Below the pieces are notes generated by a model. The model was given only the letters and a program-made list of their open reading frames with translations. It was not told the origin of the DNA and did no database searches. Positions 4,441-38,178 of a DNA stretch of 64,000 nt are shown here, in pieces. The DNA is from Streptomyces maremycinicus (GTDB lineage Bacteria; Actinomycetota; Actinomycetes; Streptomycetales; Streptomycetaceae). The stretch lies in NCBI RefSeq assembly GCF_001184025.1, contig NZ_BBYG01000020.1:124001-188000 (forward strand), in the 5' to 3' direction. Numbering within the stretch: position 1 is the first letter of the stretch; each line of letters starts with the position of its first letter. The position numbers and the translations under genes are program-made.

Positions 4441-4979
4441 CCGATCCTGATCTGGTAGCGCAGCCTCTGCCGTAGGGCAGGCATCACCATACGGTCGACC
4501 TGGATCGGCCGGTCGGCGTGGTCCAGCGTGAGCCGCAGGAGCCGCAGGACCGGTTCTCCGGGAGCGGTCCGCAGGATCCGGCGCTCCTCCTCGTGCGGCA
4601 TGCCGGCCGTCACGTCCTCCCGTACCAGGACACCGACGTGACCGAGCTCGGCGAGCAGGGTGAGGGCCCCGCCGGGAATCTTGGCCGTCCCGGCGAGACG
4701 GGTGCCCGCCGCTATGGCCGCCGGGTAGTACGAGTCGGTCAGCTCGCTGGGCTCCTCGTCGAGGAGGATCAGCCGCCGGCGTACGACGACCGGCTCGCCC
4801 TCGTGAACGCCGAGCAGCGCCGCCACGTCGGCGGGGGCGGGCACCTCACCGGCGTGCAGGATGCGCTGGGTGCCGCGCCGGCCCTCGGCCGCGGCCTCGG
4901 CGGCCCAGGCGTCGCCCTGCCCGGTGCCCCGTGGCGTCAGATACGGCAACGATGTGCTGACCCATCCGCTCGCACCCAC
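4437..4979 (-). CDS. UTRA-domain protein without a DNA-binding domain
   Basis: The 180-residue product is almost all UTRA domain (about residues 35-178: TQRILHAGEVPAPADVAALLGV, then DSYYPAAIAAGTRLAG and LTLLAELGHVGVLVREDVTAG), homologous to the C-terminal half of the GntR protein encoded next to it. The usual winged helix is missing; only about 30 residues (MGASGWVSTSLPYLTPR) precede the domain, and no upstream in-frame start would restore it. It overlaps the downstream GntR gene by 4 bases. It could act as a ligand-sensing partner of that regulator, forming mixed UTRA dimers, or be an independent metabolite-binding protein. Confidence 0.8.
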   Translation of the reverse strand: MGASGWVSTSLPYLTPRGTGQGDAWAAEAAAEGRRGTQRILHAGEVPAPADVAALLGVHEGEPVVVRRRLILLDEEPSELTDSYYPAAIAAGTRLAGTAKIPGGALTLLAELGHVGVLVREDVTAGMPHEEERRILRTAPGEPVLRLLRLTLDHADRPIQVDRMVMPALRQRLRYQIRIG

Positions 4980-5620: not shown

Positions 5621-6643
5621 TCAGGTCTTCTTACGGGTCGTCATGAACCGCTGGACCAGGATGAACGCGCACAGCAGCACACCGGTGGCGATCTTCGTCC
5701 ACCAGGAGCTGAGCGTGCCCTCGAACTGGATGATGCTCTTGATCAGACCCAGCACCAGCACACCGAACAGGGTGCCCAGCACGTATCCGGAGCCACCCGT
5801 CAGCAGCGTGCCGCCGATGACCACCGCGGCGATCGCGTCGAGTTCCATGCCGGTCGCGTGCAACGGGTCGCCGGACTGGATGTACAGGGTGAAGAGCAGT
5901 CCGGCCAGGGCCGAGCAGAACCCGCTCACCGTGTACACGGCGATCTTCGTGCCGCCCTGCGGAAGACCCATCAGCATGGCCGACTGCTCGTTGCCGCCGA
6001 TGGCGTACACCCGGCGCCCGAAGCGGGTGTAGTGCAGGACGTAGAACGCCACGGCGAGGACGACCAGCGACACGATCGCGCCGATCGACAGGAATCCCAT
6101 GCCCAGCGACACCTGCGCCTGGGCCATGCTGCTCACCGAGGCGTCGCCGATGGAGATCGACTCCTTGCTGATGACCAGGCACAGGCCGCGGAAGAGGAAG
6201 AGGCCGGCGAGGGTCACGATGAAGGGCTGGATCTCGAAGTTGTGGATCACATAGCCCATCAGGAAGCCGCCGAAGGCGCCCACGGCCAGCGCCATCGGGA
6301 TCACCACCACGATCGGCAGTCCCTGGCGCTCCACCAGCCAGGCCGTGAACATCGTGGTGAAGCCGATCATCGAACCGACGGACAGGTCGATGCCGCCGGA
6401 CAGGATGACGAAGGTGACCCCGACGGCGGCGACCAGGAGATAGCCGTTGTCGATGAACAGGTTCAGGAAGACCTGCGGCTCGCCGAACCCGTAGTTCTGG
6501 TAGCGGCTCAGGCCGACGCCGTACATCACCAGGAAGAGCAGGGCGGTCACCGCGACGGGCAGCCGCCGGTCACCGAGCAGCCGCCCGGCCGTGGACGGGG
6601 TACGGCTGCCGGAGGCCGTGGGGCTCTGGGTGGTCGCGCTCAT
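5621..6643 (-). CDS. yjfF: Sugar ABC transporter permease, YjfF-like
   Basis: The 340-residue product is a BPD_transp_2 family permease of the ribose/galactofuranose class with many hydrophobic helices. It carries the class signature VGVTFVILSGGIDLSVGSMIG near residue 80 and the coupling-helix region GRRVYAIGGNEQSAMLMGL near residue 200. It is the last gene of an operon in the order binding protein - ATPase - permease - permease, the E. coli ytfQ-ytfR-ytfT-yjfF order. The ATG overlaps the TGA of the preceding permease by one base (TGATG). E. coli YtfQRT-YjfF imports galactofuranose; here the substrate may be a furanose such as arabinofuranose, given the arabinan genes nearby. Confidence 0.88.
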   Translation of the reverse strand: MSATTQSPTASGSRTPSTAGRLLGDRRLPVAVTALLFLVMYGVGLSRYQNYGFGEPQVFLNLFIDNGYLLVAAVGVTFVILSGGIDLSVGSMIGFTTMFTAWLVERQGLPIVVVIPMALAVGAFGGFLMGYVIHNFEIQPFIVTLAGLFLFRGLCLVISKESISIGDASVSSMAQAQVSLGMGFLSIGAIVSLVVLAVAFYVLHYTRFGRRVYAIGGNEQSAMLMGLPQGGTKIAVYTVSGFCSALAGLLFTLYIQSGDPLHATGMELDAIAAVVIGGTLLTGGSGYVLGTLFGVLVLGLIKSIIQFEGTLSSWWTKIATGVLLCAFILVQRFMTTRKKT

Positions 6644-7764
6644 CACGACACCTCCATCTTGGGGGCGGCCTCGGACGCCGCGGCGGGGTCCGCCGGGGCC
6701 GCGGCCTGCTTGCCGCTTCCCCGCGCACCCGATCCGGCGCCGAACCGGGCACCGAACACCTTGGCGCGGAACTTCGGGGACTGGAGCAGACAGACGACGA
6801 TGACGACGGCGGCCTTGAAGACCAGGTTGGTCTGGGTGGGCACGCCGATGGTGTAGATCGTGGTGGTCAGGGTCTGGATGACGAGGGCGCCGACCACCGT
6901 GCCGCCGACGGAGAACCGGCCGCCCAGGAGCGATGTGCCGCCGATCACCACGGCGAGGATCGCGTCGAGTTCGATCCACAGGCCGGCGTTGTTGCCGTCC
7001 GCGGCCGAGGTGTTGGAGCTGATCATCAGGCCGGCGATGCCCGCGCAGAGCGCGCAGAACGCGTACACCATGATCTTGATGCGCCGGGACCTGATGCCCA
7101 CCAGCCGGCTCGCCTCGGCGTTGCCGCCGACCGCCTCGACCAGCAGGCCGAGGGCCGTACGGCGGGTCAGTGCCACGGTGACGGCCACGACCGCGGCCAC
7201 CACGAAGATGGAGAACGGCAGGGTCAGCCAGTAGCCGCCGCCGATCAGCTTGTACGGCTCGCTGTTGACGGTGATGATCTGGCCGTCGGTGATCAGCTGG
7301 GCCACACCGCGTCCGGCGACCATGATGATCAGGGTCGCGATGATCGGCTGGATGCCCATCCTGGCGACCAGGAAGCCGTTCCACAGACCGCAGACGACCG
7401 CGGCCAGCAGGCCCAGGCCCATGGCGAGCAGCACCCCGGACAGGGCGCCCTGGTCGGACCGGTCGCTGATGTACGAGCAGGCCAGCGCCCCGGTGATGGC
7501 GACCACCGCGCCGACCGACAGGTCGATGCCGCCGGTGGCGATGACCAGGGTCATGCCGACCGCCACCAGGATGAGGGGCGATCCGAACAGCACGATCGAG
7601 ACGAGGCTGCCGTAGAGGTGGCCGTCCGCCATCCTGACCGAGAAGAAGTCGGGGGTGAAGGGCACGTTGACGAGCAGCAGCAGGACCAGGACCGCCACCG
7701 GCCAGAACAGGTGGTGGTGGGTCAGCGCCCGCCACCGGGAAGAGGTGGTCGAAGGGGTGGTCAC
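6643..7764 (-). CDS. ytfT: Sugar ABC transporter permease, YtfT-like
   Basis: The 373-residue product is the second BPD_transp_2 permease of the operon. It shows about ten hydrophobic segments, the signature VGMTLVIATGGIDLSVGAVVAITG near residue 100 and the GRxxL-VEAVGGNAEASRLVGI coupling helix. The C-terminus is a polar Ala/Pro/Lys tail. The GTG start lies in a GTGA overlap with the stop of the ATPase gene (7761-7764), so translation is coupled. It should pair with the YjfF-like permease to form the membrane channel for the sugar delivered by the lipoprotein encoded at 9401. Confidence 0.88.
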   Translation of the reverse strand: MTTPSTTSSRWRALTHHHLFWPVAVLVLLLLVNVPFTPDFFSVRMADGHLYGSLVSIVLFGSPLILVAVGMTLVIATGGIDLSVGAVVAITGALACSYISDRSDQGALSGVLLAMGLGLLAAVVCGLWNGFLVARMGIQPIIATLIIMVAGRGVAQLITDGQIITVNSEPYKLIGGGYWLTLPFSIFVVAAVVAVTVALTRRTALGLLVEAVGGNAEASRLVGIRSRRIKIMVYAFCALCAGIAGLMISSNTSAADGNNAGLWIELDAILAVVIGGTSLLGGRFSVGGTVVGALVIQTLTTTIYTIGVPTQTNLVFKAAVVIVVCLLQSPKFRAKVFGARFGAGSGARGSGKQAAAPADPAAASEAAPKMEVS

Positions 7765-9305
7765 TGGTGTTCTCCGCTCGCGATGGTCTCCAGGATCCGG
7801 CTCGTGGTGATCTCGGGCCCGTTGGCGATCCGCGCCACCAGCCGGCGGTCGCGCAGCACTCCGATGGTGTGGCTGAGCCGGAGTACCTCCTCCAGCTCGG
7901 CCGCGATGTACAGCACCGACATACCGTCCTCGGAGAGCGAGACGACGAGCTTCTGGATCTCCGCCTTGGCCCCGATGTCGATGCCGCGCGTCGGCTCGTC
8001 CAGGATCAGCAGCTTCGGACTCGTGATCAGCCAGCGGGCCAGCAGCACCTTCTGCTGGTTGCCGCCGCTGAGCCGGCCCACCCTGGCCTCGGGGTCGGCG
8101 GGGCGGATGTCCAGCGCCTTGATGTACTTGGCGACGAGTTCGTCGCGCTGGGCGGCCGGGATCGGCCGGGTCCAGCCGCGGGAGGCCTGAAGGGCCAGGA
8201 TGATGTTCTCCCGGACCGTCAGTTCGGGCACCAGGCCCTCGCTCTTGCGGTTCTCGGAGCAGAAGGCGACACCGGCGTCGATCGCGTCGTTCGGGGCGCT
8301 CATCGAGACCTGCTCGCCGCCGATGGTCACCTTCCCGGAGTCCGGCTGGTCGGCCCCGAAGAGCAGCCGGGCGAGTTCGGTGCGGCCCGATCCGAGCAGG
8401 CCGGCGAGCCCGATCACCTCGCCCTTCTTGATCTCCAGGTCGAACGGGGCGATGCCGCCGGTCCGGCCGAGGCCGTCCGCCTGGAGCAGGGTCTCGCCCG
8501 CGCCGGAGTGCAGCTGGTGTTCGTGGAGTTCGTCCAGCTGGCCCATGGCCTTGCCGAGCATGAGCTGGACGAGACCGACCTGGTCGAGGTCGCGCACCAG
8601 GTGCTCGCCGACGAGGGTGCCGTTGCGCAGTACGGTCATCCGGTCGCAGACCTCGTAGATCTGGTCGAGGAAGTGCGAGACGAACAGGATCGCGACGCCC
8701 TCGTCCCGCAGCCGCCGCATCAGCGCGAACAGCCGGAGAACCTCGTCCCGGTCGAGGCTGGAGGTCGGCTCGTCGAGGATCAGCACCTTGGTGCCCGGTC
8801 CCTCGCCGCCGCCCGCGCCCTCGCCGGTGCCCAACGACCTTACGATCGCGACCAGTTGCTGCACGGCCAGCGGGTACGAGGACAACGGGGCGCTGACGTC
8901 GATGTCGAGGCCGAGCCGGTCCACCAGCTCCGCCGCTCGTCGGCGCAGCCGCTTCCACTGGATGCGGCCCCCGCGGGTCGGTTCACGGCCGATGAAGATG
9001 TTCTCCGCCACCGACAGGTTGGGGCAGAGGTTGACCTCCTGGTACACGGTGCTGATACCGGCCTGCTGGGCCTCCAGCGGGCTGCCGATCCGCACCGCCG
9101 TGCCGTCCAGCGTGATCGTGCCGCCGTCCAGCGAGTAGACCCCCGTGAGCACCTTGATGAGGGTGGACTTGCCCGCGCCGTTCTCGCCCATCAGGGCGTG
9201 GATCTCACCGGGGAAGAGCCGGAAGTCGACGTCCGACAGAGCCCGTACCCCCGGAAACTCCTTGACTATGCCCGTCATTTCCAGGACGGGCCGTGGCTCT
9301 GCCAT
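7761..9305 (-). CDS. ytfR: Sugar ABC transporter ATP-binding protein, YtfR-like
   Basis: The 514-residue protein is a tandem ATPase of the RbsA/MglA type. Domain 1 has an intact Walker A (GENGAGKST near residue 36) and Walker B (LILDEPTSSLD). Domain 2 has a degenerate P-loop (GLLGSGRTELA) but a full signature ([15 protein letters not shown]) and Walker B ([11 protein letters not shown]), as usual for this class. The ATG at 9305 is preferred over one five codons earlier because GAGGAG precedes it. It couples ATP hydrolysis to import through the two permeases encoded downstream. A stem-loop separates it from the binding-protein gene. Confidence 0.9.
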   Translation of the reverse strand: MAEPRPVLEMTGIVKEFPGVRALSDVDFRLFPGEIHALMGENGAGKSTLIKVLTGVYSLDGGTITLDGTAVRIGSPLEAQQAGISTVYQEVNLCPNLSVAENIFIGREPTRGGRIQWKRLRRRAAELVDRLGLDIDVSAPLSSYPLAVQQLVAIVRSLGTGEGAGGGEGPGTKVLILDEPTSSLDRDEVLRLFALMRRLRDEGVAILFVSHFLDQIYEVCDRMTVLRNGTLVGEHLVRDLDQVGLVQLMLGKAMGQLDELHEHQLHSGAGETLLQADGLGRTGGIAPFDLEIKKGEVIGLAGLLGSGRTELARLLFGADQPDSGKVTIGGEQVSMSAPNDAIDAGVAFCSENRKSEGLVPELTVRENIILALQASRGWTRPIPAAQRDELVAKYIKALDIRPADPEARVGRLSGGNQQKVLLARWLITSPKLLILDEPTRGIDIGAKAEIQKLVVSLSEDGMSVLYIAAELEEVLRLSHTIGVLRDRRLVARIANGPEITTSRILETIASGEHQ

Positions 9306-9337
9306 GGCAGCGCTCCTCATGAGATTCGTTCAGGCCC

Positions 9338-9400: not shown

Positions 9401-10408
9401 TCAGTACTTGCGGCTCGGGAGGGCGGCCGCGGCCTGGTCCTGCATGAAGTCGCCCTCCTCGGTCTTGATCCAGCGCTCGACCGTCTCGCCGTCCTTGACC
9501 TTCTTGACGACGTCCATCAGCTGCGGGCCGAGCAGCGGGTTGCACTCGACGATGGCGTTGATCTTGCCCTCGGACATGGCCACGAAGCCGTCCTTCACGC
9601 CGTCGATCGAGACGATCAGGATGTCCTTGCCGGGCTTCTTGCCGGCCGCCTCGATGGACTGGATGGCACCGATGGCCATGTCGTCGTTGTGCGCGAACAG
9701 GACGTTGATCTCCGGGTTGGACTGGAGGAAGGCGGCCATGACCTGCTTGCCCCCGGCGCGGGTGAAATCACCGGTCTGGCTGACGACGACCTTCCAGTCG
9801 CTCGCGTGGTCGGCGTCCATGACCTCCTTGAAGCCCTTGGCGCGCTCGATCGCGGGGGCGGCGCCGGTGGTGCCCTCCAACTGCGCGATCTTCACGGGGC
9901 CCTTGAGGCCGGCCTTCGCGATGACCTTCTCGAGGATCTTGGCGGCGCGGCGGCCCTCGTCGGTGAAGTCGGAGCCGACCAGGGTCACGTACAGGGACTC
10001 GTCGGAGGTCTCGACGGAGCGGTCGGTGAGGACCACCGGGATCTTCTTGGCCTTGGCCTCCTTCAGCACCGCGTCCCAGCCGGTGACGACCACCGGCGAG
10101 AAGGCGATGACGTCGACGCCCTGGGTGATGTAGCTGCGGATCGCGGAGATCTGGTTCTCCTGCTTCTGCTGGGCGTCGGAGAACTTGAGGGTGTAGCCCG
10201 CCTCCTTGGCCGCCGCCTTCACCGAGTCCGTGTTGGCGCTGCGCCAGCCGCTCTCCGAGCCGACCTGGGAGAAGCCGAGCGTGATCGCCTTGCCGCCGTC
10301 CCCGGAGGAGGAGCCGGACGCTCCGTCGTCCTCCTTGGCGCAGGCCGCCAGGCCACCCGCCGCCGCCACGCCGACCGCCGCGGTGAGGAAGTTCCTTCTG
10401 CTGAGCAT
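9401..10408 (-). CDS. ytfQ: Sugar ABC transporter substrate-binding lipoprotein, YtfQ-like
   Basis: The 335-residue protein starts MLSRRNFLTAAVGVAAAGGLAAC, a signal with a twin Arg (RRNF) followed by a lipobox ending in Cys22, so it is an exported lipoprotein, possibly Tat-dependent. The mature part is a type I periplasmic-binding fold (Peripla_BP_4): LGFSQVGSESGWRSANTDSVKAAAKEAG is the typical YtfQ opening, followed by QIAAIRSYITQGVDVIAFSP-like and VLFAHNDDMAIGAIQSIE segments. AAAGGAGAAG precedes the ATG. It heads the YtfQRT-YjfF operon and is preceded by a GTTCG-N6-CG-type site at 10495 and by the LacI gene. Confidence 0.9.
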   Translation of the reverse strand: MLSRRNFLTAAVGVAAAGGLAACAKEDDGASGSSSGDGGKAITLGFSQVGSESGWRSANTDSVKAAAKEAGYTLKFSDAQQKQENQISAIRSYITQGVDVIAFSPVVVTGWDAVLKEAKAKKIPVVLTDRSVETSDESLYVTLVGSDFTDEGRRAAKILEKVIAKAGLKGPVKIAQLEGTTGAAPAIERAKGFKEVMDADHASDWKVVVSQTGDFTRAGGKQVMAAFLQSNPEINVLFAHNDDMAIGAIQSIEAAGKKPGKDILIVSIDGVKDGFVAMSEGKINAIVECNPLLGPQLMDVVKKVKDGETVERWIKTEEGDFMQDQAAAALPSRKY

Positions 10409-10494
10409 GTTCTTCTCCTTTGAAGAGCCGGCCCGGGGGCGGACCTGCTGGTACTCGACGGACCGGCCGCACTGCGTCCAGCCTGTCGATCACT

Positions 10495-10510
10495 GTTCGG
10501 TATTTCGGTC
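10495..10510 (-). promoter_or_regulatory. Predicted regulon operator upstream of ytfQ-like gene
   Basis: GTTCGGTATTTCGGTC matches the motif GTTCG-NNATTT-CG found before five other sugar genes in this window; the closest match is the site at 15531-15546, which differs at one base. It lies 86 bases before the ytfQ-like ATG, in the gap after the LacI gene. No convincing -35/-10 pair could be aligned with it. Confidence 0.5.
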
Positions 10511-13193: not shown

Positions 13194-13260
13194 TTGACAC
13201 TCGCCTCGCGCAATCCTTACTGTCTGCCCAGCATTTCGAACATGTGACGAAATCTCGAAC
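13194..13260 (+). promoter_or_regulatory. Promoter and operator of the dehydratase operon
   Basis: TTGACA (13194-13199), an 18-base spacer and TACTGT (13218-13223) form a SigA-type promoter predicting a start near 13230. The operator TGACGAAATCTCGAAC (13245-13260; on the other strand GTTCG-AGATTT-CGTCA) begins about 16 bases downstream of that start, where a bound repressor would block elongation. A second partial site ATTTCGAAC lies at 13233-13241. Confidence 0.65.
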
Positions 13261-13278
13261 AGCCGAAGGGTAACTTCC

Positions 13279-14439
13279 GTGCGCATCACCGGAATCAGCA
13301 CGCACGTGGTCGGGACGCCGTGGCGCAACCTGACCTACGTCCTGGTGCACACCGACGAGGGCATCACGGGTGTCGGAGAGACCCGCATGCTGGGTCACAC
13401 CGACGCGCTGCTCGGCTACCTGAAGGAGGCCGAGGCCAACCACATTCTCGGCTCGGACCCATTCGCTGTCGAGGACCTCGTGCGCCGGATGAAGTACGGC
13501 GACTACGGGCGGGCCGGCGAGATCGTGATGTCGGGCATCGCCGTCGTCGAGATGGCCTGCTGGGACATCAAGGGCAAGGCCCTCGGCGTGCCCGTCTGGC
13601 AGCTGCTCGGCGGCAAGGTCACCGACAAGGTGAAGGCCTACGCCAACGGCTGGTACACCACCGAGCGGACCCCGGAGGCGTACCACAAGGCGGCCCAGGG
13701 AGTCATGGAGCGCGGCTACAAGGCGCTCAAGATCGATCCCTTCGGCACCGGCCACTTCGAGCTGGACCACCAGCAGACCCTGTACGCGGTCTCCCTCATC
13801 GAGGCCGTGCGCGACGCCATCGGGCCGGACGCCGAGCTGATGCTGGAGATGCACGGCCGCTTCTCCCCCGCCACCGCGGTCCGGCTCGCGAACGAGCTCG
13901 CGCCCTTCAAGCCCGCGTGGCTGGAGGAGCCGTGCCCGCCCGAGAACCTGAAGGCCCTGGAGAAGGTCGCCGCGAAGGTCGACATCCCCGTCGCCACCGG
14001 TGAGCGCATCCACGACCGCGTCGAGTTCCGCGAGCTCTTCGAGAGCCAGGCCGTGGACATCATCCAGCCCGACGTCGGCCACATCGGCGGCATCTGGGAG
14101 ACCAGGAAGCTGGCCGCCACCGCCGAGGCGCACTACGTCCTCGTCGCCCCGCACAACGTGGGCGGCCCGGTCCTCACCGCCGCCTCGCTCCAGGTCGGGT
14201 TCACCTCCCCGAACTTCAAGATCCTCGAGCACTTCAACGACTTCGCGGACGCGGAGATCAAGAAGGTCGTCAAGGGCGCGCCCGAGGTGATCGACGGCTA
14301 CTTCCACCTCTCCGACAAGCCCGGCCTCGGTGTCGAGCTCGACGTGGACGCCGCCGCCGAGTTCCCGCAGCAGCAGGCCCGTTTCGACCTCTGGGCCGAG
14401 GGCTGGGAGCAGCGCAAGCCGAAGGGCAGCGCCAAGTGA
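13279..14439 (+). CDS. Mandelate racemase/muconate lactonizing family sugar-acid dehydratase
   Basis: The 386-residue product is an enolase-superfamily enzyme, most like galactonate dehydratases (DgoD type), which remove water from a sugar acid to give a 2-keto-3-deoxy acid. Seen are the N-terminal capping domain (residues 1-115), LKIDPFG on barrel strand 2, Mg ligands E190 (LEMHGR), the Glu of WLEEP and the Glu of TGERI, and the conserved PHNVGGPV at strand 8. H192 in the EMHGR motif fits the dehydratase group. The GTG follows CCGAAGGGTAAC. It overlaps the dehydrogenase gene (GTGA) and has a strong promoter with an arabinose-type operator, so arabonate, galactonate or fuconate are candidate substrates. 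Confidence 0.85.
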   Translation: MRITGISTHVVGTPWRNLTYVLVHTDEGITGVGETRMLGHTDALLGYLKEAEANHILGSDPFAVEDLVRRMKYGDYGRAGEIVMSGIAVVEMACWDIKGKALGVPVWQLLGGKVTDKVKAYANGWYTTERTPEAYHKAAQGVMERGYKALKIDPFGTGHFELDHQQTLYAVSLIEAVRDAIGPDAELMLEMHGRFSPATAVRLANELAPFKPAWLEEPCPPENLKALEKVAAKVDIPVATGERIHDRVEFRELFESQAVDIIQPDVGHIGGIWETRKLAATAEAHYVLVAPHNVGGPVLTAASLQVGFTSPNFKILEHFNDFADAEIKKVVKGAPEVIDGYFHLSDKPGLGVELDVDAAAEFPQQQARFDLWAEGWEQRKPKGSAK

Positions 14440-15440
14440 GCACGGCCGTCGTCGTCGAGGCGCCGGGCGAGCACCGGCTCGTCCCGCACGAGCCGCGGCG
14501 GCCGGAACCCGGCGAGGCGCTCGTCCGTGTGCACGCCACCGGAATCTGCGGCAGCGACCGCGAGGTGTACCAGGGCAACCGGCCCGAGGGGTACGTCCGC
14601 TATCCGCTGACCCCCGGCCACGAGTGGTCCGGGACGGTCGAGGCGGTCGGCGCCGGGGTCCCCGCGTCGCTCGTCGGCCGCAAGGTCGTCGGTGAGGGCT
14701 TCCGCAACTGCCAGGTCTGCGACCGCTGCCACGCGGGCGAGACAACGTTGTGCACCGACGGCTACGAGGAGACCGGCTTCACCCAGCCGGGGGCCATGGC
14801 GGCCACCCTCACCCTGCCGGCCCGGCTGCTGCACGTCCTGCCGGACGACGCGGACCTGACCGCCGCCGCCCTGCTGGAGCCGGCCGCCTGTGTCGCGGCC
14901 GCCGCGATCAAGGCGCACGCCCTGCCGGGCGAGAAGGTGGCCGTCGTCGGCACCGGAACGCTGGGCATGTTCGCCGTGCAGTTCCTGAAGGCCGGCTCGC
15001 CCGCCGAGCTGCTGGTCGTCGGCACCCGGAACGACCGGGAGGGCCTCTCCCGGCAGTTCGGGGCGACCGACTTCCGGACCAGGGACCAGGAACTGCCGGA
15101 CGACTTCGACGTCGTCATCGAGACCGCCGGGTCCGCGTCCGCCGCGCGGACCGCCGCCTCGCTGCTGCGGCGCGGCGGCCGGCTGGTCCTGACCGGGATC
15201 CCGGCACCGGGCGCCGACGGGCTCGACCCGACGGACCTGGTGGTACGGCAGCTGGAGGTGCACACCGTCTTCGGGGCACCGCCGGACGCCTGGTCGCACA
15301 CCGTCCGGGTGTTCGGCGCCGGGCTGCTGGATCCGCTGCCGCTGGTCACGCACGAACTGCCGCTCGCCGAGTTCTCCGCGGCCATCGACCTGGTGGGATC
15401 AGGCGATCCGAAGGTGGGCAAGGTGCTGCTCAAGCCGTGA
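14436..15440 (+). CDS. Zinc-dependent alcohol dehydrogenase, MDR family
   Basis: The 334-residue product is a zinc MDR dehydrogenase of the sorbitol/threonine dehydrogenase group. Catalytic zinc ligands are seen in GICGSD and PGHEW; the structural zinc site is RNCQVCDRCHAGETTLC (four Cys near residues 91-107). The Rossmann motif is VVGTGTLGMFAVQF near residue 172. GTG overlaps the stop of the dehydratase gene. In this setting it likely oxidises a sugar or polyol, for example L-arabinose to its lactone or a keto-deoxy acid downstream, with NAD(P). Which step it performs is inference. Confidence 0.85.
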   Translation: MSTAVVVEAPGEHRLVPHEPRRPEPGEALVRVHATGICGSDREVYQGNRPEGYVRYPLTPGHEWSGTVEAVGAGVPASLVGRKVVGEGFRNCQVCDRCHAGETTLCTDGYEETGFTQPGAMAATLTLPARLLHVLPDDADLTAAALLEPAACVAAAAIKAHALPGEKVAVVGTGTLGMFAVQFLKAGSPAELLVVGTRNDREGLSRQFGATDFRTRDQELPDDFDVVIETAGSASAARTAASLLRRGGRLVLTGIPAPGADGLDPTDLVVRQLEVHTVFGAPPDAWSHTVRVFGAGLLDPLPLVTHELPLAEFSAAIDLVGSGDPKVGKVLLKP

Positions 15441-15530: not shown

Positions 15531-15546
15531 GACCGAAATATCGAAC
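15531..15546 (+). promoter_or_regulatory. Predicted regulon operator before the TIM-barrel gene
   Basis: GACCGAAATATCGAAC (other strand GTTCG-ATATTT-CGGTC) is another copy of the shared motif, 14 bases before the GTG at 15561 and immediately before its AAGGA ribosome site. A repressor here would block this gene and the ChvE-MmsAB genes behind it. Confidence 0.6.
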
Positions 15547-15560
15547 ACGAAGGACGGCAT

Positions 15561-16532
15561 GTGACCACCGACGCTTCCGCCACGGCAGCCCGTCGACCCG
15601 GTGAGCAGGCGCTCACCGCGCTCGGCCTGGGCGCGCCCGCCCTCGACCCCGCCGACGCCTCCGCCCACACCTTTCCGGGCGGCGGCCGCTGGCGCACCGA
15701 GGTCCCTTCGTGCGAGGGTCCCGAAGCGCTGGCCGTCATCCTCAAGGAGGCCTCGCGCCTCGACGTGCCGATCCACCGGATCAGCCAGGGCAGCGGCGTG
15801 TGGATGCTGACCGACGCCGAGATCACCGAGATGGTCGACGCCACCGGTGAGCGCGACATCGAGCTGTGCCTGTTCACCGGGCCGCGCGGCACCTGGGACA
15901 TCGGCGGCTCGACCCGTACCGACTCCCGCGGCGGCGGGCTGCGCGCCCGCGGCCACGACGCCGTCGCCGGGTGCGTCGAGGACGCCGTCCGGGCGACGGA
16001 ACTGGGCGTCAAGTGCCTGCTCGTCGCCGACGAGGGCGTGCTGTGGACGCTGCACCGCGCCCGCACGGCCGGCATCATCCCGGCCGACACCACGCTGAAG
16101 GTGTCGGCGCTCATCGGTCCCGTCAACCCGGCGGCGTACGCGGTCTACGAGCAGCTCGGCGCCGACTCGGTCAACGTGCCCAGTGACCTCACCCTGGACC
16201 ACCTGACCGAGATCCGCCGGGTGTCCGGCGCCCCCATGGACATGTACATCGAGGCCCCCGACGATCTCGGCGGGTACATCCGGATGTACGAGGTCGCCGA
16301 GCTGATCCGGCGCGGCGCACCGCTCTACCTGAAGTTCGGCCTGTCCAAGGCCCCGGGGATCTACCCGTACGGCCACCACATGCGGGACCTGACCCTTTCC
16401 ACGGCCCGGGAGCGGGTGCGGCGTGGACGGCTCGCCCTCGACCTGCTCGCCCGCCACGGCGCGGACGGCGCCATGGCGCCGCTCGGCTCGCGCCTGCCGG
16501 GTGAGCTGAAGCGGTTTGACATCCAGTCATAA
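15561..16532 (+). CDS. Peptidase U32-like TIM-barrel protein
   Basis: The 323-residue product resembles proteins annotated as U32-family peptidases in Streptomyces sugar loci: [34 protein letters not shown], then [28 protein letters not shown] and [31 protein letters not shown], an alternating beta/alpha pattern of a TIM barrel. No signal peptide is visible. A clear catalytic motif could not be assigned, and a carbohydrate lyase or aldolase role is as likely as proteolysis given the neighbours. It sits between the dehydrogenase and the ChvE-like lipoprotein and carries its own operator-like site. The GTG follows AAGGACGG. Confidence 0.7.
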
Positions 16533-16680: not shown

Positions 16681-17790
16681 ATGCGCAACCGCAGAGCAGC
16701 CCTCGCCGCCATAGCCGGAGCCGCCTCCCTGGCCCTGACCCTGTCCGCCTGCGGCCAGAGCGGCGAAGGCGGCAGCAAGGACGACGGTTCGGACAGCGCC
16801 AAGGGCGGGACCATCGGTATCGCGATGCCGACGAAGTCCTCCGAGCGCTGGATCTCCGACGGCGCCAACGTCGTCAAGGACCTCGAGGCCAAGGGCTACA
16901 AGACCAAGCTGGTCTACGGTGAGGACGACCCCGACCAGCAGGTCTCGCAGATCGAGAACCTGATCACGCAGGGCGTCAAGGCGCTGATCGTCGCGGCCAT
17001 CGACAACAAGTCGCTGAACAACGTCCTCCAGCAGGCCGCCGACGCCAAGATCCCGGTCATCTCCTACGACCGTCTGATCCTCGGCACGAAGAACGTCGAC
17101 TACTACGCGTCCTTCGACAACACCAAGGTCGGCGAGCTCCAGGCCAACTACATCGTCGACAAGCTCGGCCTGAAGTCCGGCAAGGGCCCGTTCAACATCG
17201 AGCTGTTCGCCGGCTCCAACGACGACAACAACACGAAGTACTTCTTCAACGGCGCGATGAGCGTGCTCCAGCCGTACATCGACAGCAAGAAGCTCGTCGT
17301 GCAGTCCGGCCAGACCGGCCTCACCCAGGTCACCACCCTGCGCTGGGACGGCGCGACCGCGCAGAAGCGCATGGACGACATCCTCACCAAGTCGTACGGC
17401 AGCAAGAAGGTCGACGCGGTCCTCTCGCCCTACGACGGCATCTCCATCGGCATCCTGTCGGCGCTGAAGTCGGACGACTACGGCTCCGCGAGCAAGCCGC
17501 TGCCGGTCCTCACCGGCCAGGACGCCGAGCTGGCCTCGGTGAAGTCGATCATCGCCGGCGGTCAGACGCAGACCGTCTACAAGGACCTCCGTGAGCTGGC
17601 CAAGGTCGCCACGACCATGGTGGACGACGTCCTCAACGGCAAGAAGCCGGAGACGAACGACACCAAGACCTACGACAACGGCACCAAGGTCGTCCCGGCC
17701 TACCTGCTCCAGCCGGTGAGCGTGGACAAGACCAACTACGAGAAGGTCCTCGTCGAGGGCGGCTACTACACGGCCGACCAGCTCAAGTAA
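16681..17790 (+). CDS. chvE: Multiple-sugar-binding lipoprotein, ChvE/XylF-like
   Basis: The 369-residue lipoprotein has an n-region with Arg, a hydrophobic core and lipobox LSAC (Cys near residue 24). The mature domain is a type I periplasmic-binding fold of the ChvE/XylF class: [39 protein letters not shown], and [22 protein letters not shown] are characteristic. ChvE proteins bind arabinose, galactose, glucose, xylose and fucose. The ATG at 16681 is preferred to two upstream ATGs because AAGGAT lies at the correct distance. It is followed after 32 bases by mmsA and then mmsB, forming a full importer. Confidence 0.9.
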
Positions 17791-17822: not shown

Positions 17823-19373
17823 ATGGCGGGACCCGTCCTGGAAATGCGCTCGATCGTCAAGACCTTTCCCGGTGTGAAAGCGCTGTCGGACGTCACCCTG
17901 ACCGTCCGCCAGGGCGAGGTCCACGCCATCTGCGGTGAGAACGGCGCCGGAAAGTCCACCCTGATGAAGGTGCTCTCCGGCGTCCATCCGCACGGCACGT
18001 ACGAGGGCGAGATCCTCTTCGAGGGAGAGACCGTCTCCTTCAAGGACATCCGGGCGAGCGAGCAGCACGGCATCGTGATCATCCACCAGGAGCTGGCGCT
18101 GGTGCCGTACCTCTCCCTCGCGGAGAACATCTTCCTCGGCAACGAGCACGCCTCGCGCGGGCTGATCAACTGGAACGAGACCCTGCGGCACGCCTCCGAG
18201 CTGCTGCGCCGGGTCGGTCTGAGCGATCACCCCGAGACCCGCGTCGCCGACATCGGCGTGGGCAAGCAGCAGCTCGTGGAGATCGCGAAGGCGCTGTCGA
18301 AGAAGGTGAAGCTGCTCATCCTCGATGAGCCGACCGCGGCCCTCAACGACGAGGACAGCGACAAACTCCTGGATCTCATCCTGGAGTTGAAGAAGCAGGG
18401 CATCACCTCGATCATCATCTCCCACAAGCTCAACGAGATCCGCAAGGTCGCGGACTCGGTGACGATCATCCGCGACGGGCAGTCCATCGAGACGCTCGAC
18501 GTGAAGTCGGCGGAGACGACCGAGGACCGGATCATCAGCGGCATGGTCGGCCGCGACCTCGACAACCGGTTCCCCGAGCGCACCCCGCACGAGGCGGAGT
18601 CGGGCGCGGCTCCGGCCCTGGAGATCCGCAACTGGACCGTGCACCACCCGATCGACCAGCAGCGCAAGGTCGTCGACGACGTGTCGATCCAGGTGCGGCG
18701 CGGGGAGATCGTCGGCATCGCGGGCCTGATGGGCGCCGGCCGCACCGAGCTGGCCATGAGCGTCTTCGGACGCTCCTACGGCCGGCACGCGGGCGGCACC
18801 GTCCTCAAGGACGGCAAGGAGATCCGCACCAAGACCGTCGCGGAGGCGGTCGGCCACGGGATCGCCTATGTCACGGAGGACCGCAAGCACTACGGCCTCA
18901 ACCTCATCGACACGATCAACCGCAACATCTCGCTCACCGCGCTGGGCAAGGTGGCCAAGCGGGGGATCGTCGACGAGCACGAGGAGCGGCAGGTCTCCGA
19001 GGGCTACCGCAAGTCGATGAACATCAAGGCGCCGACCGTCTTCGAGCCGGTGGGCAAGCTGTCCGGCGGCAACCAGCAGAAGGTCGTCCTCAGCAAGTGG
19101 ATCTTCGCGGGTCCGGACGTGCTGATCCTGGACGAGCCGACACGCGGTATCGACGTCGGCGCCAAGTACGAGATCTACACGGTCATCGACCAACTGGCCG
19201 CCCAGGGCAAGGCGGTCGTCTTCATCTCCTCCGAGCTGCCCGAACTGCTCGGCATGTGCGACCGCATCTACACCATGGCCGCCGGGCGGCTCACGGGCGA
19301 GGTCCCGCGGGCCGAGGCCACGCAGGAAGTGCTGATGCGTCAGATGACGAAGGACAAAGAGGTAACGCGATGA
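17823..19373 (+). CDS. mmsA: Multiple monosaccharide ABC transporter ATP-binding protein
   Basis: The 516-residue protein is a tandem ABC ATPase of the GguA/MmsA class. Domain 1 has Walker [10 protein letters not shown] near residue 38 and Walker [13 protein letters not shown]; domain 2 has the degenerate P-loop [11 protein letters not shown], signature [14 protein letters not shown] and [11 protein letters not shown]. The characteristic MmsA insert [10 protein letters not shown] and HPHGTYEG after the first P-loop are present. The ATG at 17823 follows GGAAGG by 7 bases. Its stop overlaps the permease start (ATGA). It energises uptake of the sugar bound by the ChvE-like lipoprotein. Confidence 0.93.
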
Positions 19374-20614
19374 GCACCGACGTGACCAAGAGCCCGGCGG
19401 CCGCTCCGCCCGGCAACAGCGGCGGACCGGCGGCCGGCGGCGGCCTGCTCCAGCTGGTGCTGGACGGCCTGCGCCGCAACATGCGCCAGTACGGCATGCT
19501 GATCGCGCTCGGCCTGATCGTCGCGCTCTTCGCCGTCTGGACCGACGGTGACCTGCTGCTGCCGCGCAACGTCTCCAACCTGGTCCTCCAGAACAGCTAT
19601 GTGCTGATCCTCGCGATCGGCATGATGCTGGTGATCATCGCGGGTCACATCGACCTGTCGGTCGGTTCACTGACGGCGTTCATCGGCGCCTTCGCGGCCG
19701 TGCTGACGGTGCAGCACGACGTGGCGTGGCCCGTCGCGGTGGTGCTGTGCCTGATCGTGGGCGCGGTCGCGGGGTCGGTCCAGGGCTACTTCATCGCCTA
19801 TCTCGGCATACCGTCGTTCATCGTCACCCTCGCCGGCATGCTGATCTTCCGCGGCATGACGGAGATCTTCCTCGAGGGCCAGACCCTCGGCCCGTTCCCG
19901 GACGGCCTTCAGAAGATGGGCAACGGCTTCCTCCCCGAGGCCGGTCCGAACACGAACTACCACAACATCACACTCCTGCTGGGTCTCGCCGTGATCGTCA
20001 TGGTGGTGCTCCAGGAGGTCCGCGACCGCAAGCGCCAGCAGGAGTTCTCGCTGGACGTCGTGCCGCGCAACCTGTTCCTGCTCAAGATCGTCGCCATCGT
20101 CGCCGCGGTGCTCACCGTCACGATGCTGCTCGCCAGCTACAAGGGCGCGCCGATCATCCTGCTGGTCCTGGGCGCGCTGGTGGTCGGCTACGGCTACATC
20201 ATGCGCAATGCCGTCTTCGGCCGTCACATCTACGCGATCGGCGGCAACCTGCCGGCCGCGAAGCTGTCCGGCGTCAAGGACAAGAAGGTCACCTTCCTCG
20301 TCTTCCTGAACATGGGCGCGCTCGCGGCCCTGGCGGGCCTGGTGGTCGCGGCGCGGCTGAACGCGGCCGGTCCCAAGGCGGGTCTGAACTTCGAACTCGA
20401 GGCGATCGCCTCGGCGTTCATCGGTGGCGCGTCCATGAGCGGCGGTGTCGGCACCGTCCTCGGCGCGATCATCGGTGGTCTCGTCCTCGGTGTGCTGAAC
20501 AACGGCATGAACCTGCTGGGCGTCGGCAGCGACTGGCAGCAGGTCATCAAGGGCCTGGCGCTGCTCGCCGCGGTCGGTTTCGACGTCTGGAACAAGCGCA
20601 AGTCCGGTTCGTGA
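19370..20614 (+). CDS. mmsB: Multiple monosaccharide ABC transporter permease
   Basis: The 414-residue protein is a BPD_transp_2 permease of the GguB/MmsB class, longer than RbsC because of an inserted loop after the fifth helix ([13 protein letters not shown] and [10 protein letters not shown]). It shows [25 protein letters not shown] near residue 83 and [24 protein letters not shown]. In this family a single permease works as homodimer with MmsA. A low-complexity Ala/Pro/Gly N-terminus (about 25 residues) precedes the first helix. ATGA overlap with mmsA couples translation. The gene ends 72 bases before a strong terminator. Confidence 0.92.
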
Positions 20615-22611: not shown

Positions 22612-24045
22612 CTACACCGGCTCGAGCCGCCACTGCTGGCAGGCGTTGTTCAGCCAGGACCACTGACGTACGTCGGCGGAGTCCGCGGTGGAGCAGTCGG
22701 CGACGTCGGCGACCTTGCCCGTGGCCTCGTTGACGATACGGACGTATCCGCTGTCGGTGGTGAGGAAGCGGAAGCGCTGGCAGGTGTTGTTCAGCCAGGA
22801 CCACTGACGCAGGTCGGCGCCGTCCGCGGCGGAGCAGTCGGCGGTGTCGAGGACCTTGCCGGTGGCCACGCCGACCAGCCGGCTGGTGTCGTCGCCCTGG
22901 TCCTCGATCCGCCAGCGCTGGTTGGCGCCGCCGTTGCACGTGTACTGCTGGACGTCGGCGCCGTCCGCCGTCGAACCGCCCGCCACGTCGAGGCACTTGC
23001 CGCTGTTGCGGTTGGTGATCCGGTAGGTGGTGGCGGTGGCCGAGGGTTCACCGGAGGGGCCGGCGCCGGACGAGCCCAGTGCCACGGGCGTGCCCAGGTT
23101 CGGGGTGCCGTCGGCGTTCCAGGTGAACTTCTGCGCCCGGGTCGTGCGGCCGTTGTCGCAGCCGTCCGAGGCCGAGTCGTTGGCGTGGTAGACGATCCAG
23201 CTCTCGGTGCCGTCCGGCGAGCTGAAGAAGCCGTTGTGGCCGGGGCCGTAGACGCCCGCGGAGTCGTTCCGCTGGAAGACGGGCGTGGACTTCTTCGTCC
23301 AGGACGACGGCGCGAGCGGGTCGGAGCCGGTGAGGGTGAGCTGACCGAGTTTGTAGTCGGGGGTCCAGCAGCCGCTCGCCGAATAGACCAGGAACGTCTT
23401 GCCGCCGCGCTGGAGGATCTCCGGCCCCTCGTTGACCGAACCGCCCGACTTCTCCCAGGAGTTGGTCGGCGTGGAGATGGTCGTGAAGCCGGTGGCCAGG
23501 GTGTACGGGTTGGACATCCGGGCCGCCACGAGGTTCTGTGTCCCGCCGCTGACGCTGCCGAGCAGGTACAGCTGACCGTTGATGGTCGCGACCGTCGGGT
23601 CCAGCATCCAGGCGGAGTTGAGCCGGCTCTTGTAGGTGTACGGGCCTGTCGGGTCCGAGCCCGCGCTCTCCAGGACGTGGGTGCGCTGCGTCGGGTTGTA
23701 GTCGGAGACGTTCTGCCCGGCGACGTAGTACAGGTACCAGCGGCCGCCGATGAAATGCAGTTCGGGCGCCCAGATGTTGCAGCACCGTGAGGCGGCGTCC
23801 CCGGTCCACACCTGGATGTTCGGCGCGGTGGCGAGTCCCGCGAGGGTGGCGGACCTGCGCAGCGTGATGACGTTGGTCCAGCTCGTCGTCACGAGGTAGT
23901 AGTTGCCGTCGTGGTACGAGATCCAGGGGTCGGCGCCCTTCTGCGCCTTGACCGGGTTGGTGACGGTGGCCGCGCTCGCGGAGGGCTGTCCGATCGCCAG
24001 GGCGAGCAGCAGCGCGGCCAGCAGGGTCAGTAGGCGACGGGCCAT
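22612..24045 (-). CDS. Secreted GH43 arabinofuranosidase-like enzyme with CBM13
   Basis: The 477-residue protein has a Sec signal (MARRLLTLLAALLLALAIGQPSASA, cleavage after ASA). Residues 30-325 are a GH43 five-bladed propeller: GADPWISYHDG (base Asp), AWMLDPTVATING (pKa-modulating Asp) and VNEGPEIL (acid Glu) can be picked out. Residues 340-477 are a ricin-type CBM13 with repeated QxW motifs (NQRWRIE, CQRFRF, CQQWRLE). It probably removes arabinose side chains from arabinan or arabinoxylan outside the cell. Its start overlaps the arabinanase 3' end by 19 bases, so both form one operon read from the promoter at 25077-25143. Confidence 0.88.
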   Translation of the reverse strand: MARRLLTLLAALLLALAIGQPSASAATVTNPVKAQKGADPWISYHDGNYYLVTTSWTNVITLRRSATLAGLATAPNIQVWTGDAASRCCNIWAPELHFIGGRWYLYYVAGQNVSDYNPTQRTHVLESAGSDPTGPYTYKSRLNSAWMLDPTVATINGQLYLLGSVSGGTQNLVAARMSNPYTLATGFTTISTPTNSWEKSGGSVNEGPEILQRGGKTFLVYSASGCWTPDYKLGQLTLTGSDPLAPSSWTKKSTPVFQRNDSAGVYGPGHNGFFSSPDGTESWIVYHANDSASDGCDNGRTTRAQKFTWNADGTPNLGTPVALGSSGAGPSGEPSATATTYRITNRNSGKCLDVAGGSTADGADVQQYTCNGGANQRWRIEDQGDDTSRLVGVATGKVLDTADCSAADGADLRQWSWLNNTCQRFRFLTTDSGYVRIVNEATGKVADVADCSTADSADVRQWSWLNNACQQWRLEPV

Positions 24046-25049
24046 CCGCTGCTCCAGTTCAAGAGGTTGATGCCGAGCTTGGGAGTGCCGTTGTCGTTGC
24101 CGTCGTAGTAGTGGTAGACGATCAGGTCGCCGTCGGTGTCGTGCAGGATCGACTGGCCACCGGGGCCGATGACGCTGCCGTGCGACTCCAGGACGGGCGT
24201 GCCGCCGTTGTTCGTCATCGCGACGCCGCTCTTGTCGTAGTACGGCCCGGTGACAGCGGTGGCGCGGCCGACCTTGACCTTGTAGGTGGAGCTGGTGCCG
24301 GCGCAGCAGGTGTCGTAGGAGGCGAAGAGGTAGTAGTAGCCGCCGCGCTTCACGATGTAGGGCGCCTCGACGGCCTTGGTCCCGGTGGGGCGGGACGCGA
24401 TCGAGCGCCGGGCGGTGTCGGACGCGAGCTGCTTGCCGGTCGACGGGTCGATCCGGATCATCTTGATGCCCGTCCACCAACTGCCGAACGACAGCCACCA
24501 CTTGCCGTCGTCGTCCACGAACAGGTTCGGGTCGATGGCGTTGTGGTCGCTGGACGTGGTGGAGGTGTAGACGGTGCCGTAGTCGGTCCAGGAGCCGGGG
24601 AGCCCGGTGCTCGAACCGGCCAGTCCGATGGCGGACTTGTTGGATCCGAAGGTGGAGACGGCGTAGTACATCAGGTACTTGCCGCCCTGGTACGAGATGT
24701 CGGGCGCCCAGGCCTCGGTGGTGCCGTAGGAGGACCACCAGCCCGGCCGGGTGGAGAAGGCGTCGGCTCCCGCGCCGAAGGCGATGCGGTCGGTGGAGGT
24801 GCGGTAGGACAGGCCGCCGCCGGTGGCGTAGAGGAGGTAGCGGCCGGCCGAGGTGCGGATCATCGTCGGGTCGTGCACGACCGTGGAGCCGGTGACCGTA
24901 CCGGGGTTGGGGTACGCGGAGGCGCTGGAGGGGACGAGGGCGAGCAGGACGGCCGCCGGGAGGGCGAGCAGTGCGGCCCTGCGGGACCTGGACGGGTGGG
25001 ACGGGTGGGATGTGCGGGGTGCGCGGGGTGTGCGGGAGATGCGGCTCAT
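24027..25049 (-). CDS. Secreted GH43 endo-1,5-alpha-L-arabinanase
   Basis: The 340-residue protein carries an Arg-rich long signal peptide (ALLALPAAVLLALVPSSASA, about 45 residues) and a GH43 domain of the arabinan endo-1,5-alpha-L-arabinosidase kind. Catalytic positions are VHDPTM (base Asp), NAIDPNLF (second Asp) and KAVEAPYI (acid Glu); the segment TTEAWAPDISYQGGKYLMYY is typical. GAAGGAGCG precedes the ATG at 25049. It cuts the arabinan backbone and is followed by the overlapping GH43-CBM13 gene. Its promoter is nearly identical in layout to that of the ABC importer gene at 31339-32697, implying shared control. Confidence 0.9.
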   Translation of the reverse strand: MSRISRTPRAPRTSHPSHPSRSRRAALLALPAAVLLALVPSSASAYPNPGTVTGSTVVHDPTMIRTSAGRYLLYATGGGLSYRTSTDRIAFGAGADAFSTRPGWWSSYGTTEAWAPDISYQGGKYLMYYAVSTFGSNKSAIGLAGSSTGLPGSWTDYGTVYTSTTSSDHNAIDPNLFVDDDGKWWLSFGSWWTGIKMIRIDPSTGKQLASDTARRSIASRPTGTKAVEAPYIVKRGGYYYLFASYDTCCAGTSSTYKVKVGRATAVTGPYYDKSGVAMTNNGGTPVLESHGSVIGPGGQSILHDTDGDLIVYHYYDGNDNGTPKLGINLLNWSSGWPVAY

Positions 25050-25076
25050 GCGGACGCTCCTTCGAGGGGGGATGTC

Positions 25077-25143
25077 GTTCGTGATACCGAACAACATTCG
25101 CGTCGTCGGACGGGACCGTAGAATCGAACCCCTTGCGCGTCAA
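25077..25143 (-). promoter_or_regulatory. Promoter and operator of the arabinanase operon
   Basis: On the minus strand TTGACG (25138-25143), a 17-base spacer and TACGGT (25115-25120) predict a start near 25108. A perfect inverted repeat GTTCG-TGATAC-CGAAC lies at 25077-25092, about 17 bases into the transcript. The blocks CCATTGACG and TCGATTCTACGGTCCCGT match the importer promoter at 32721-32787 almost exactly. Confidence 0.75.
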
Positions 25144-25345
25144 TGGCCCGCGCGCACACCCGAAAGTCTTCGAGAAACGGGGAGCCGCTCCGCCACCCCG
25201 CCGCCCGCGGGGCCCGCCGGCCCCGTCGGCCCCGTGAGCCGTCGACCGGCATGTGTCGACACTTGCCCTGCAAGTAGCTTGACGGCGCCCCACTTTGCCG
25301 AACTGACAGCCTGCCGACAGGAAACGTTCCTACGGTGTCGTGCTC

Positions 25346-32697: not shown

Positions 32698-32720
32698 ACC
32701 TTGCCCCTGCCGTTCAATCG

Positions 32721-32787
32721 GTTCGACATTTCGAATTCCGCTCGTAACTTCGAACGGGACCGTAAAATCGATGCGGCTGCACGTCAA
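32721..32787 (-). promoter_or_regulatory. Promoter and operator of the arabino-oligosaccharide importer operon
   Basis: On the minus strand TTGACG (32782-32787), 17 bases, then TACGGT (32759-32764) predict a start near 32752. The operator GTTCG-ACATTT-CGAAT (32721-32736) lies about 17 bases into the transcript, and a half-site TTCGAAC overlaps the start at 32749-32755. Sequence and spacing match the arabinanase promoter. Confidence 0.75.
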
Positions 32788-36407: not shown

Positions 36408-36505
36408 CCCGCGAGACCCAGCCCGCGAGGTTCAGCCCGCGAGGCCCGGCCCGCGAGGTTCAGCCCGCGAGGTTCAGCCCGCGAGGCTCGGCCCGCGAGG
36501 CTCAG
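36408..36505. repeat. 14-bp tandem repeat overlapping the SMP-30 stop codon
   Basis: Seven consecutive units CCCGCGAG(A/G)(C/T)(C/T)C(A/G)G, three of them identical (CCCGCGAGGTTCAG), run into a degenerate eighth unit that is the last codons of the SMP-30 gene; the TGA of that gene lies inside the seventh unit. The array has grown into the gene end without altering the frame. No spacers, so it is not a CRISPR array. Confidence 0.9.
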
Positions 36506-38123: not shown

Positions 38124-38162
38124 AACCGGCCCCCTCCCTTAGGTAGTCGTCTCAGTGCCTGT

Positions 38163-38178
38163 GTTCGAGATTTCAACA
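38163..38178 (-). promoter_or_regulatory. Predicted autoregulatory operator of the IclR gene
   Basis: GTTCG-AGATTT-CAACA matches 13 of 16 positions of the site before the dehydratase gene (GTTCG-AGATTT-CGTCA). It is flanked by CCTGT...ACAGG arms. A possible -10 TATGAC lies at 38205-38210 on the minus strand, putting the operator about 20 bases downstream of the start. Confidence 0.6.

Follow-up and report, generated by a model that had tools for sequence, protein, structure and literature searches.

What does a protein that resembles U32 peptidases do in an operon that otherwise appears to serve a sugar acid? The gene in question, here called U32L, lies within a 64,000-nucleotide stretch of Streptomyces maremycinicus DNA (the window), with a predicted MDR dehydrogenase upstream, a ChvE-GguA-GguB importer downstream and an operator ahead of it (Table 1), which is the setting that the initial annotation had described. 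The genes for the dehydrogenase (ADH) and for an acid dehydratase of the mandelate-racemase/enolase superfamily (MRMLE) overlap by 4 bases. The dehydratase scores 296.8 bits against the NCBIfam galactonate dehydratase model (cut-off 311) and reaches no NCBIfam equivalog cut-off. The true start of GguB is probably downstream of the one listed, as its profile match starts only at residue 43, and the gene after GguB encodes an aminotransferase. No aldehyde dehydrogenase and no second dehydratase is present in the window cassette, which contains neither the DHDPS-type nor the FAH-type enzyme of keto-deoxy-acid dehydration and, besides U32L, no gene from a family known to act at the keto-deoxy-acid step. 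Because U32L stands beside the acid dehydratase and dehydrogenase of an apparent alternative L-arabinose pathway, a peptidase is a less likely identity for it than a sugar-acid enzyme of a hitherto unrecorded kind.

Table 1. Features of the window discussed in the text, with positions counted from its first nucleotide.
Feature	Position	Strand	Remarks
ATPase of the importer with the 9401-10408 binding protein	7761-9320		From domain scan
Sugar-binding protein of a further importer	9401-10408	-	Read from sequence
Operator, 1 mismatch	10494-10506	-	Before the gene of the 9401-10408 binding protein
Operator GAAATCTCGAACA	13249-13261	+	Before the MRMLE dehydratase
Acid dehydratase (MRMLE)	13279-14439	+	Galactonate-dehydratase-like
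Zn-dependent MDR dehydrogenase (ADH)	14436-15440	+	Proposed aldose 1-dehydrogenase
Operator GAAATATCGAACA	15535-15547	+	Before U32L
U32L	15561-16532	+	Real ORF, 323 aa, GTG start; U32-superfamily (beta/alpha)8-type protein, proposed 2-keto-3-deoxy-pentonate dehydratase (or aldolase)
ChvE-type sugar-binding protein	16681-17790	+	544.3 bits, NCBIfam equivalog cut-off 460
GguA ABC ATPase	17823-19373	+	880.7 bits, NCBIfam equivalog cut-off 810
GguB permease	19352-20614	+	562.9 bits, NCBIfam equivalog cut-off 450
Alpha-L-arabinofuranosidase	27933-29444	-	Pfam Alpha-L-AF_C
Solute-binding protein of another sugar importer	31339-32700	-	SBP_bac_1
Operator, 1 mismatch	32720-32732	-	Before the gene of the 31339-32700 binding protein
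SMP-30/gluconolactonase-type lactonase	36502-37353	-	Proposed sugar-lactone step
IclR-family regulator	37350-38123	-	Proposed reader of the operator
Operator GAAATCTCGAACA	38162-38174	-	Before the IclR-lactonase operon

Judged by profile comparison, U32L is a true, if distant, relative of the U32 barrels. Its sole Pfam match is to Peptidase_U32 over residues 144-230, at 18.3 bits below the cut-off of 22.4, and a genome-wide search with PF01136 at E ≤ 0.001 found no match in this genome or in seven other listed genomes of the genus. Ten orthologs from elsewhere in the phylum exceed the cut-off, with 26.0-37.2 bits over profile positions 9-93 of 233. Aligned by hhalign, the U32L family profile scored 97.4-97.7% with the U32 alignment (E 1.5e-11 to 1.8e-12; 96.2-97.0% in the first run), 1.1-3.7% with DHDPS (0.1-0.2% in the first run) and 0.5-2.8% with HpcH/HpaI, the template sets comprising 30, 30 and 22 rows for U32, DHDPS and HpcH, respectively, with a few of the U32 and DHDPS rows empty or short. 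The profile-profile match and the ten orthologs bear out the original description of a U32-like barrel; the relation to DHDPS or HpcH raised with it finds no support in sequence profiles, at 3.7% at most, and descent of U32L from either family was dropped. As yardsticks, U32 against DHDPS gave 1.2% and DHDPS against HpcH 7.0%, and as these pairs also score low an ancient barrel common to all three may exist. A sequence search of the PDB returned no match for U32L and chance matches alone for the family profile (best E 0.27), and no relatives of U32L were found in viral contigs.

The U32 alignment is confident over residues about 44-229, from strand 1 up to the beginning of strand 7, and this part stops at the position where true U32 proteins carry a glutamate and cysteines. 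In a permissive alignment the U32 glutamate falls opposite D227 with low confidence, the first cysteine falls in a gap and the later ones are unmatched, so that the cysteine-bearing U32 segment has no counterpart in U32L. Both the E-x7-C-x6-C motif and the four Fe-S cysteines are absent from the U32L family. Among 55 proteins (one per distinct sequence from chosen loci, with only three of the 80 best loci included) the residues kept in at least 54 are E47, R73, R144, D157, K180, N189, D209, R219, D227, R241 and K258; no cysteine is among them, and the number of cysteines per protein varies from 0 to 5. Another set, A3, comprised the window protein and 62 of the 80 best loci. Homology to U32 would by itself suggest an activity assigned to other U32 proteins, that of a peptidase or of a prephenate-dependent Fe-S hydroxylase, yet the lack of a conserved cysteine and of a counterpart to the U32 cysteine segment makes such a role unlikely and, taken with the operon context, in our view very improbable. 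The initial annotation had reasoned that a peptidase makes little sense at this locus, and the missing cysteine motif adds to the operon context in its support.

An AlphaFold2 model of U32L reached a pLDDT of 54.8 and a pTM of 0.56, poor values that arise because the alignment contained only sequences 89-94% identical to the window protein. Its strands and helices alternate in a barrel-like manner, and a TIM barrel is the likely fold. Searches with this low-confidence model gave three Foldseek matches at E ≤ 0.001 (2nx9, 3ajx and 4luj) and, in VIA, 50 listed rows of unrelated barrels at Z 12.2-13.0; these are generic barrels and suggest no function to us. No U32 chain is among the matches listed from either search, an absence to which we give no weight as evidence. 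The near-invariant residues K180 and K258 map to strands 5 and 8 of the low-confidence model, respectively. In the DHDPS/NAL superfamily the Schiff-base lysine is located on strand 6.

The distribution of U32L ties it to an acid dehydratase, as had been supposed at the outset. Within 150 Streptomycetaceae genomes a close U32L (at least 67% identity) occurs in 33, and MRMLE (E at most 1e-120) in the identical 33, counts that are not independent since these genomes share ancestry. Retention of U32L without the dehydratase, which the initial annotation had named as evidence against its proposal, was thus not encountered within the family. Any U32L match at all was found in 43 of these genomes; the ten left out comprise seven with 34-41% homologs and three with short fragments. 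The genome-by-genome comparison covers U32L and MRMLE, the dehydrogenase being judged as a neighbour. Of 574 confirmed loci the best 80 all have the order MRMLE-ADH-U32L-ChvE-GguA-GguB, although in one of them ChvE and GguB are each matched in two pieces. Genome G015 has both U32L and MRMLE even though they are 4.8 Mb apart on one contig; here the neighbour of U32L is an IclR gene, while the dehydratase (60% identical) adjoins a dehydrogenase (58% identical).

Outside the Streptomycetaceae ten loci (L073, L076, L078-L081, L083 and L180-L182) share the order GntR-U32L-dehydratase-SDR-binding protein-permease; the U32L and MRMLE genes overlap by 4 bases in two of these, L073 and L078, and also in L084. 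In L068, L074, L085, L090 and L183 U32L stands beside a non-homologous acid dehydratase of the IlvD/EDD family. Thermomicrobium roseum, from another phylum, carries U32L together with a sugar importer, an IclR regulator of 57% identity, a dehydratase of 62% identity and an MBL-fold hydrolase. In the tree a single clade (support 100/99) gathers the 45 members that have an SQGSG motif, and MRMLE or IlvD/EDD lies near U32L in 37 of these as against none of ten outside the clade. For the other eight clade members (L066, L067, L075, L077, L087, L088, L089 and L174) no acid dehydratase lies within the examined stretch, which for all such linkage counts was about 8-9 kb on each side and less at contig ends.

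A shared operator may connect the cassette with genes elsewhere in the genome. The window contains five GAAATNTCGAACA sites with up to two mismatches where 0.8 are expected, a number reached in none of 100 shuffles. Genome-wide (8.7 Mb in 33 contigs) the pattern occurs 14 times with at most one mismatch, four of these being exact copies, whereas the same pattern written backwards as a control gives no site. Three of the exact sites precede MRMLE, U32L and the IclR-lactonase operon; the fourth, on contig C10, lies in the divergent region that separates a GH27 gene from a glycosyltransferase-like gene, its strand pointing to the latter and not to the GH27 gene. The GH27 gene (L293, about 6391-8505) encodes a melibiase-type enzyme that carries CBM13-like and ricin-type domains, an architecture known from the Streptomyces beta-L-arabinopyranosidase, and the enzyme is a candidate for that activity. 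Of the sites with one mismatch, one precedes a secreted alpha-L-arabinofuranosidase (GH51) gene on C16 by about 30 bases and another precedes a GH62 arabinofuranosidase gene on C15 by about 400; two more lie before importer genes in the window, one of them close to the alpha-L-arabinofuranosidase gene there. Another such site in the same genome, also on C16, adjoins a further IclR-family gene (L298, about 3857-4840) upstream of genes read as aquaporin and glycerol kinase; it may represent the operator of a related IclR protein or have arisen by chance. Five of the ten one-mismatch sites (two on C8, the others on C18, C19 and C21) have neighbouring genes without any obvious connection, so some sites are expected to be chance matches. 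None of the sites genome-wide was found before an aldehyde dehydrogenase.

When the 200 bases upstream of each gene were compared across the orthologous loci, part of the motif was matched for the dehydratase at 51 of 95 loci, for U32L at 29 of 95 and for ChvE at 17 of 94; the dehydrogenase and GguA showed no such match at any locus. The lactonase is about 22 kb from the cassette in the window, under the shared operator, and orthologs of IclR and lactonase lie directly beside the cassette in seven of 124 loci (L056, L057, L058, L060, L062, L065 and L173). Dehydrogenase, lactonase and acid dehydratase families, which make up the gene set of the pathway considered below, are all encoded.

Taken as a whole, the region around the operon looks arabinan-directed. 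Two window ORFs (22615-25293 and 24027-25097, -) match GH43, one of them with ricin-type lectin domains. L-arabinose isomerase (AraA, PF02610) is absent from this genome; it is present in four of 33 genomes with U32L against 70 of 117 without (Fisher p 9e-7, uncorrected for kinship), and within the genus of the window the contrast is weak, at four of 25 against four of 13. In a list for Streptomyces sp. SirexAA-E that we interpret as the xylose list from its place before a 'Xylobiose-specific' heading, proteins equated with the cassette by their names and order only are up, namely galactonate dehydratase SACTE_1895 1.53-fold, dehydrogenase 1896 1.77, ATPase 1899 1.79, permease 1900 2.34 and alpha-N-arabinofuranosidase 1901 2.74 (excerpts of PMC12772271). 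For the binding protein (1898) the increase is 2.67-fold with xylose and 2.23-fold with xylan, and SACTE_1897, the expected U32L, goes without mention in these excerpts (PMC12772271). The sugars named there for SirexAA-E are xylose, xylobiose, xylan and glucose; L-arabinose is not in the abstract (PMC12772271). No paper on a Streptomyces arabinose pathway was among the literature matches listed. A galactonate pathway had been the first guess from NCBIfam and was replaced by arabinose on the regulon evidence. From the operator sites, the absence of AraA and the SirexAA-E data together, the substrate of the cassette would be a pentose, most likely L-arabinose.

We therefore place U32L tentatively, with a likelihood somewhat short of even, as the second dehydratase of a non-phosphorylative L-arabinose pathway that replaces the isomerase route. 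The sugar would enter through ChvE-GguAB, the MDR dehydrogenase would oxidise it to the lactone, the SMP-30 lactonase would hydrolyse this product, and MRMLE, of the enolase superfamily, would dehydrate the acid to 2-keto-3-deoxy-L-arabinonate. U32L would then take off a second water to give alpha-ketoglutaric semialdehyde, which an aldehyde dehydrogenase would convert to alpha-ketoglutarate. The mechanism of U32L is the weakest step in this scheme; a class-I-like elimination via K180 or K258 can be envisaged, with the near-invariant E47, R73, D157, D209, D227 and R241 placed by the model in or beside the barrel strands. Gene families and their order, operator sites, co-occurrence and the homology to U32 are observed, whereas we infer the substrates of all steps, their regulation and the reaction of U32L. 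In more general terms a lyase acting on a 2-keto-3-deoxy acid is plausible.

The last two steps of this scheme meet both support and complication in related clusters. In L085 an aldehyde dehydrogenase gene begins 3 bases after U32L, and the protein scores best against alpha-ketoglutaric-semialdehyde dehydrogenase (543.9 bits, cut-off 770); other aldehyde dehydrogenases are near U32L in L058, L062, L065 and L075. The enzyme in L062 belongs to no clear NCBIfam subfamily and has 1eyy and 3v4c as PDB relatives; its type is present in all 33 genomes with U32L but also in 77 of the 117 others. FAH-family proteins resembling keto-deoxy-acid dehydratases occur in or near L073, L075, L076, L077, L080 and L085. 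In L073 and L080 a second enolase-superfamily dehydratase, 35-36% identical, lies between, and each enantiomer may therefore be served by its own enzyme pair, which is a guess. The idea that U32L fills a missing step everywhere was abandoned once these FAH-type proteins appeared, and their presence in six related clusters, together with the eight of 45 clade members lacking a dehydratase, weakens the earlier claim that such an enzyme would complete the pathway. Six DHDPS-family genes in this genome could serve the same step as U32L; the surroundings of four were inspected, and one of the six is paired with an enolase-superfamily gene read as glucarate dehydratase.

It is against this background that an aldolase has to be considered, U32L then cleaving 2-keto-3-deoxy-pentonate or -hexonate to pyruvate and glycolaldehyde or glyceraldehyde (Route I). 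Such a route would end in common metabolites and would suit a window cassette lacking both an aldehyde dehydrogenase and a second dehydratase, and the distant paralogs by panB and in aminotransferase clusters (below) fit C-C chemistry on keto acids. The semialdehyde-dehydrogenase-like gene abutting U32L in L085 is, however, what a dehydratase route predicts, and because of it and the other aldehyde dehydrogenases near U32L, which could also be glycolaldehyde dehydrogenases, dehydration is moderately favoured; an aldolase appears rather unlikely. L085 also contains what seem to be dehydrogenases, a lactonase-like MBL protein and an acid dehydratase, together with an FAH-type dehydratase and the semialdehyde dehydrogenase, yet it keeps U32L, as though the protein acted at another step as an epimerase, isomerase, mutarotase or side-product repair enzyme. 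We consider this unlikely: an aldose epimerase gene is already present downstream of GguB in nine of 18 loci (though not in the window), and no other gene of the window cassette comes from a family known for the keto-deoxy acid.

The sugar could also be another one, D-galactose, D-fucose or D-xylose, with U32L acting on the corresponding keto-deoxy acid, a possibility that overlaps with the dehydratase, aldolase and other-step readings. MRMLE is galactonate-dehydratase-like, NCBIfam names ChvE-GguAB a multiple-monosaccharide importer, the GH27 gene by the C10 operator belongs to the alpha-galactosidase family, and the SirexAA-E proteins with cassette-like names rise on xylose (excerpts of PMC12772271). 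Against these stand the operators before arabinofuranosidase genes and the absence of AraA, which tracks the cassette, and we judge a different sugar improbable.

Distant paralogs of U32L occur in other settings. In four low-GC genomes of one genus (family f30; L091, L184, L186 and L187) a 32-33% paralog directly follows panB in all four loci, which hints at a place near pantothenate synthesis, panB encoding ketopantoate hydroxymethyltransferase. Paralogs of 36-40% identity in the Streptomycetaceae loci L069, L070 and L071 lie in apparent biosynthetic clusters; that of L071 encodes an asparagine-synthase-like enzyme, an ATP-grasp protein, an AMP-binding and beta-lactamase-like ORF, a class IV aminotransferase and a TauD oxygenase, and related genes are found in L070 and, in part, in L069. 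On an Enterobacter plasmid (L176, 8905-9843) a 32% paralog, named U32 family peptidase, shares what is probably a natural-product cluster with genes for an oxidoreductase, an aminotransferase, an MFS transporter, an M14 peptidase and iron-containing redox enzymes. The 34% paralogs of L072 and L092 belong to a catabolic-looking cluster, that of L092 lying by acyl-CoA dehydrogenase, amidohydrolase, luciferase-like and Zn-oxidoreductase genes and L072 having matching genes.

U32 proteins are called peptidases, and the better-studied ones act in hydroxylation. It is possible, and we advance it with less than even confidence, that the cysteine-free branch described here is a keto-deoxy-sugar-acid lyase, a further second-dehydration family of a Weimberg-type pathway unrelated in sequence to DHDPS, which would complete the L-arabinose route needed by Streptomyces without the isomerase, with the farther branches carrying out related keto-acid chemistry by panB and in natural-product clusters. 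If so, this lyase branch would be another function for the U32 fold and would correct the database name 'U32 family peptidase' under which the Thermomicrobium and Enterobacter homologs are annotated. It would likewise explain possible L-arabinose use by Streptomyces lacking araA and offer a new enzyme for Weimberg-type engineering. No paper linking a U32 protein with a sugar-acid role was among the open-licence matches listed, the word 'arabinose' occurring once in PMC6599085.

The closest comparison is with the U32 superfamily itself (TrhP/YegQ, RlhA, UbiU and UbiV), to which U32L is homologous over barrel strands 1-7, the strand 4 stretch VADxGVL being one example of the resemblance, and from which it differs by its missing cysteines and its sugar-acid operon context. 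According to excerpts of the sources, TrhP requires E162, C170 and C177 (PMC6599085), UbiU and UbiV hold a 4Fe-4S cluster by four cysteines, and among the U32 groups PepU32#5 has no conserved cysteines and group #6 has them partly conserved (PMC6747719). Dehydration of keto-deoxy-pentonates is described, in excerpts of PMC9795676, as carried out by a DHDPS-type enzyme for the L-form and an FAH-type enzyme for the D-form. With the former U32L would share its proposed reaction and pathway position, without profile similarity (1.1-3.7%); the latter performs the equivalent step for the D-enantiomer and has relatives in some U32L clusters, where it is a separate gene from a protein family other than that of U32L. 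Non-phosphorylative pentose pathways have dehydrogenase, lactonase, acid dehydratase, ABC importer and regulator genes clustered (excerpts of PMC6336799). The U32L system has a likewise-clustered gene set, and the Streptomyces cassette would differ from Routes I, II and III in that U32L replaces the keto-deoxy-acid enzyme of known family.
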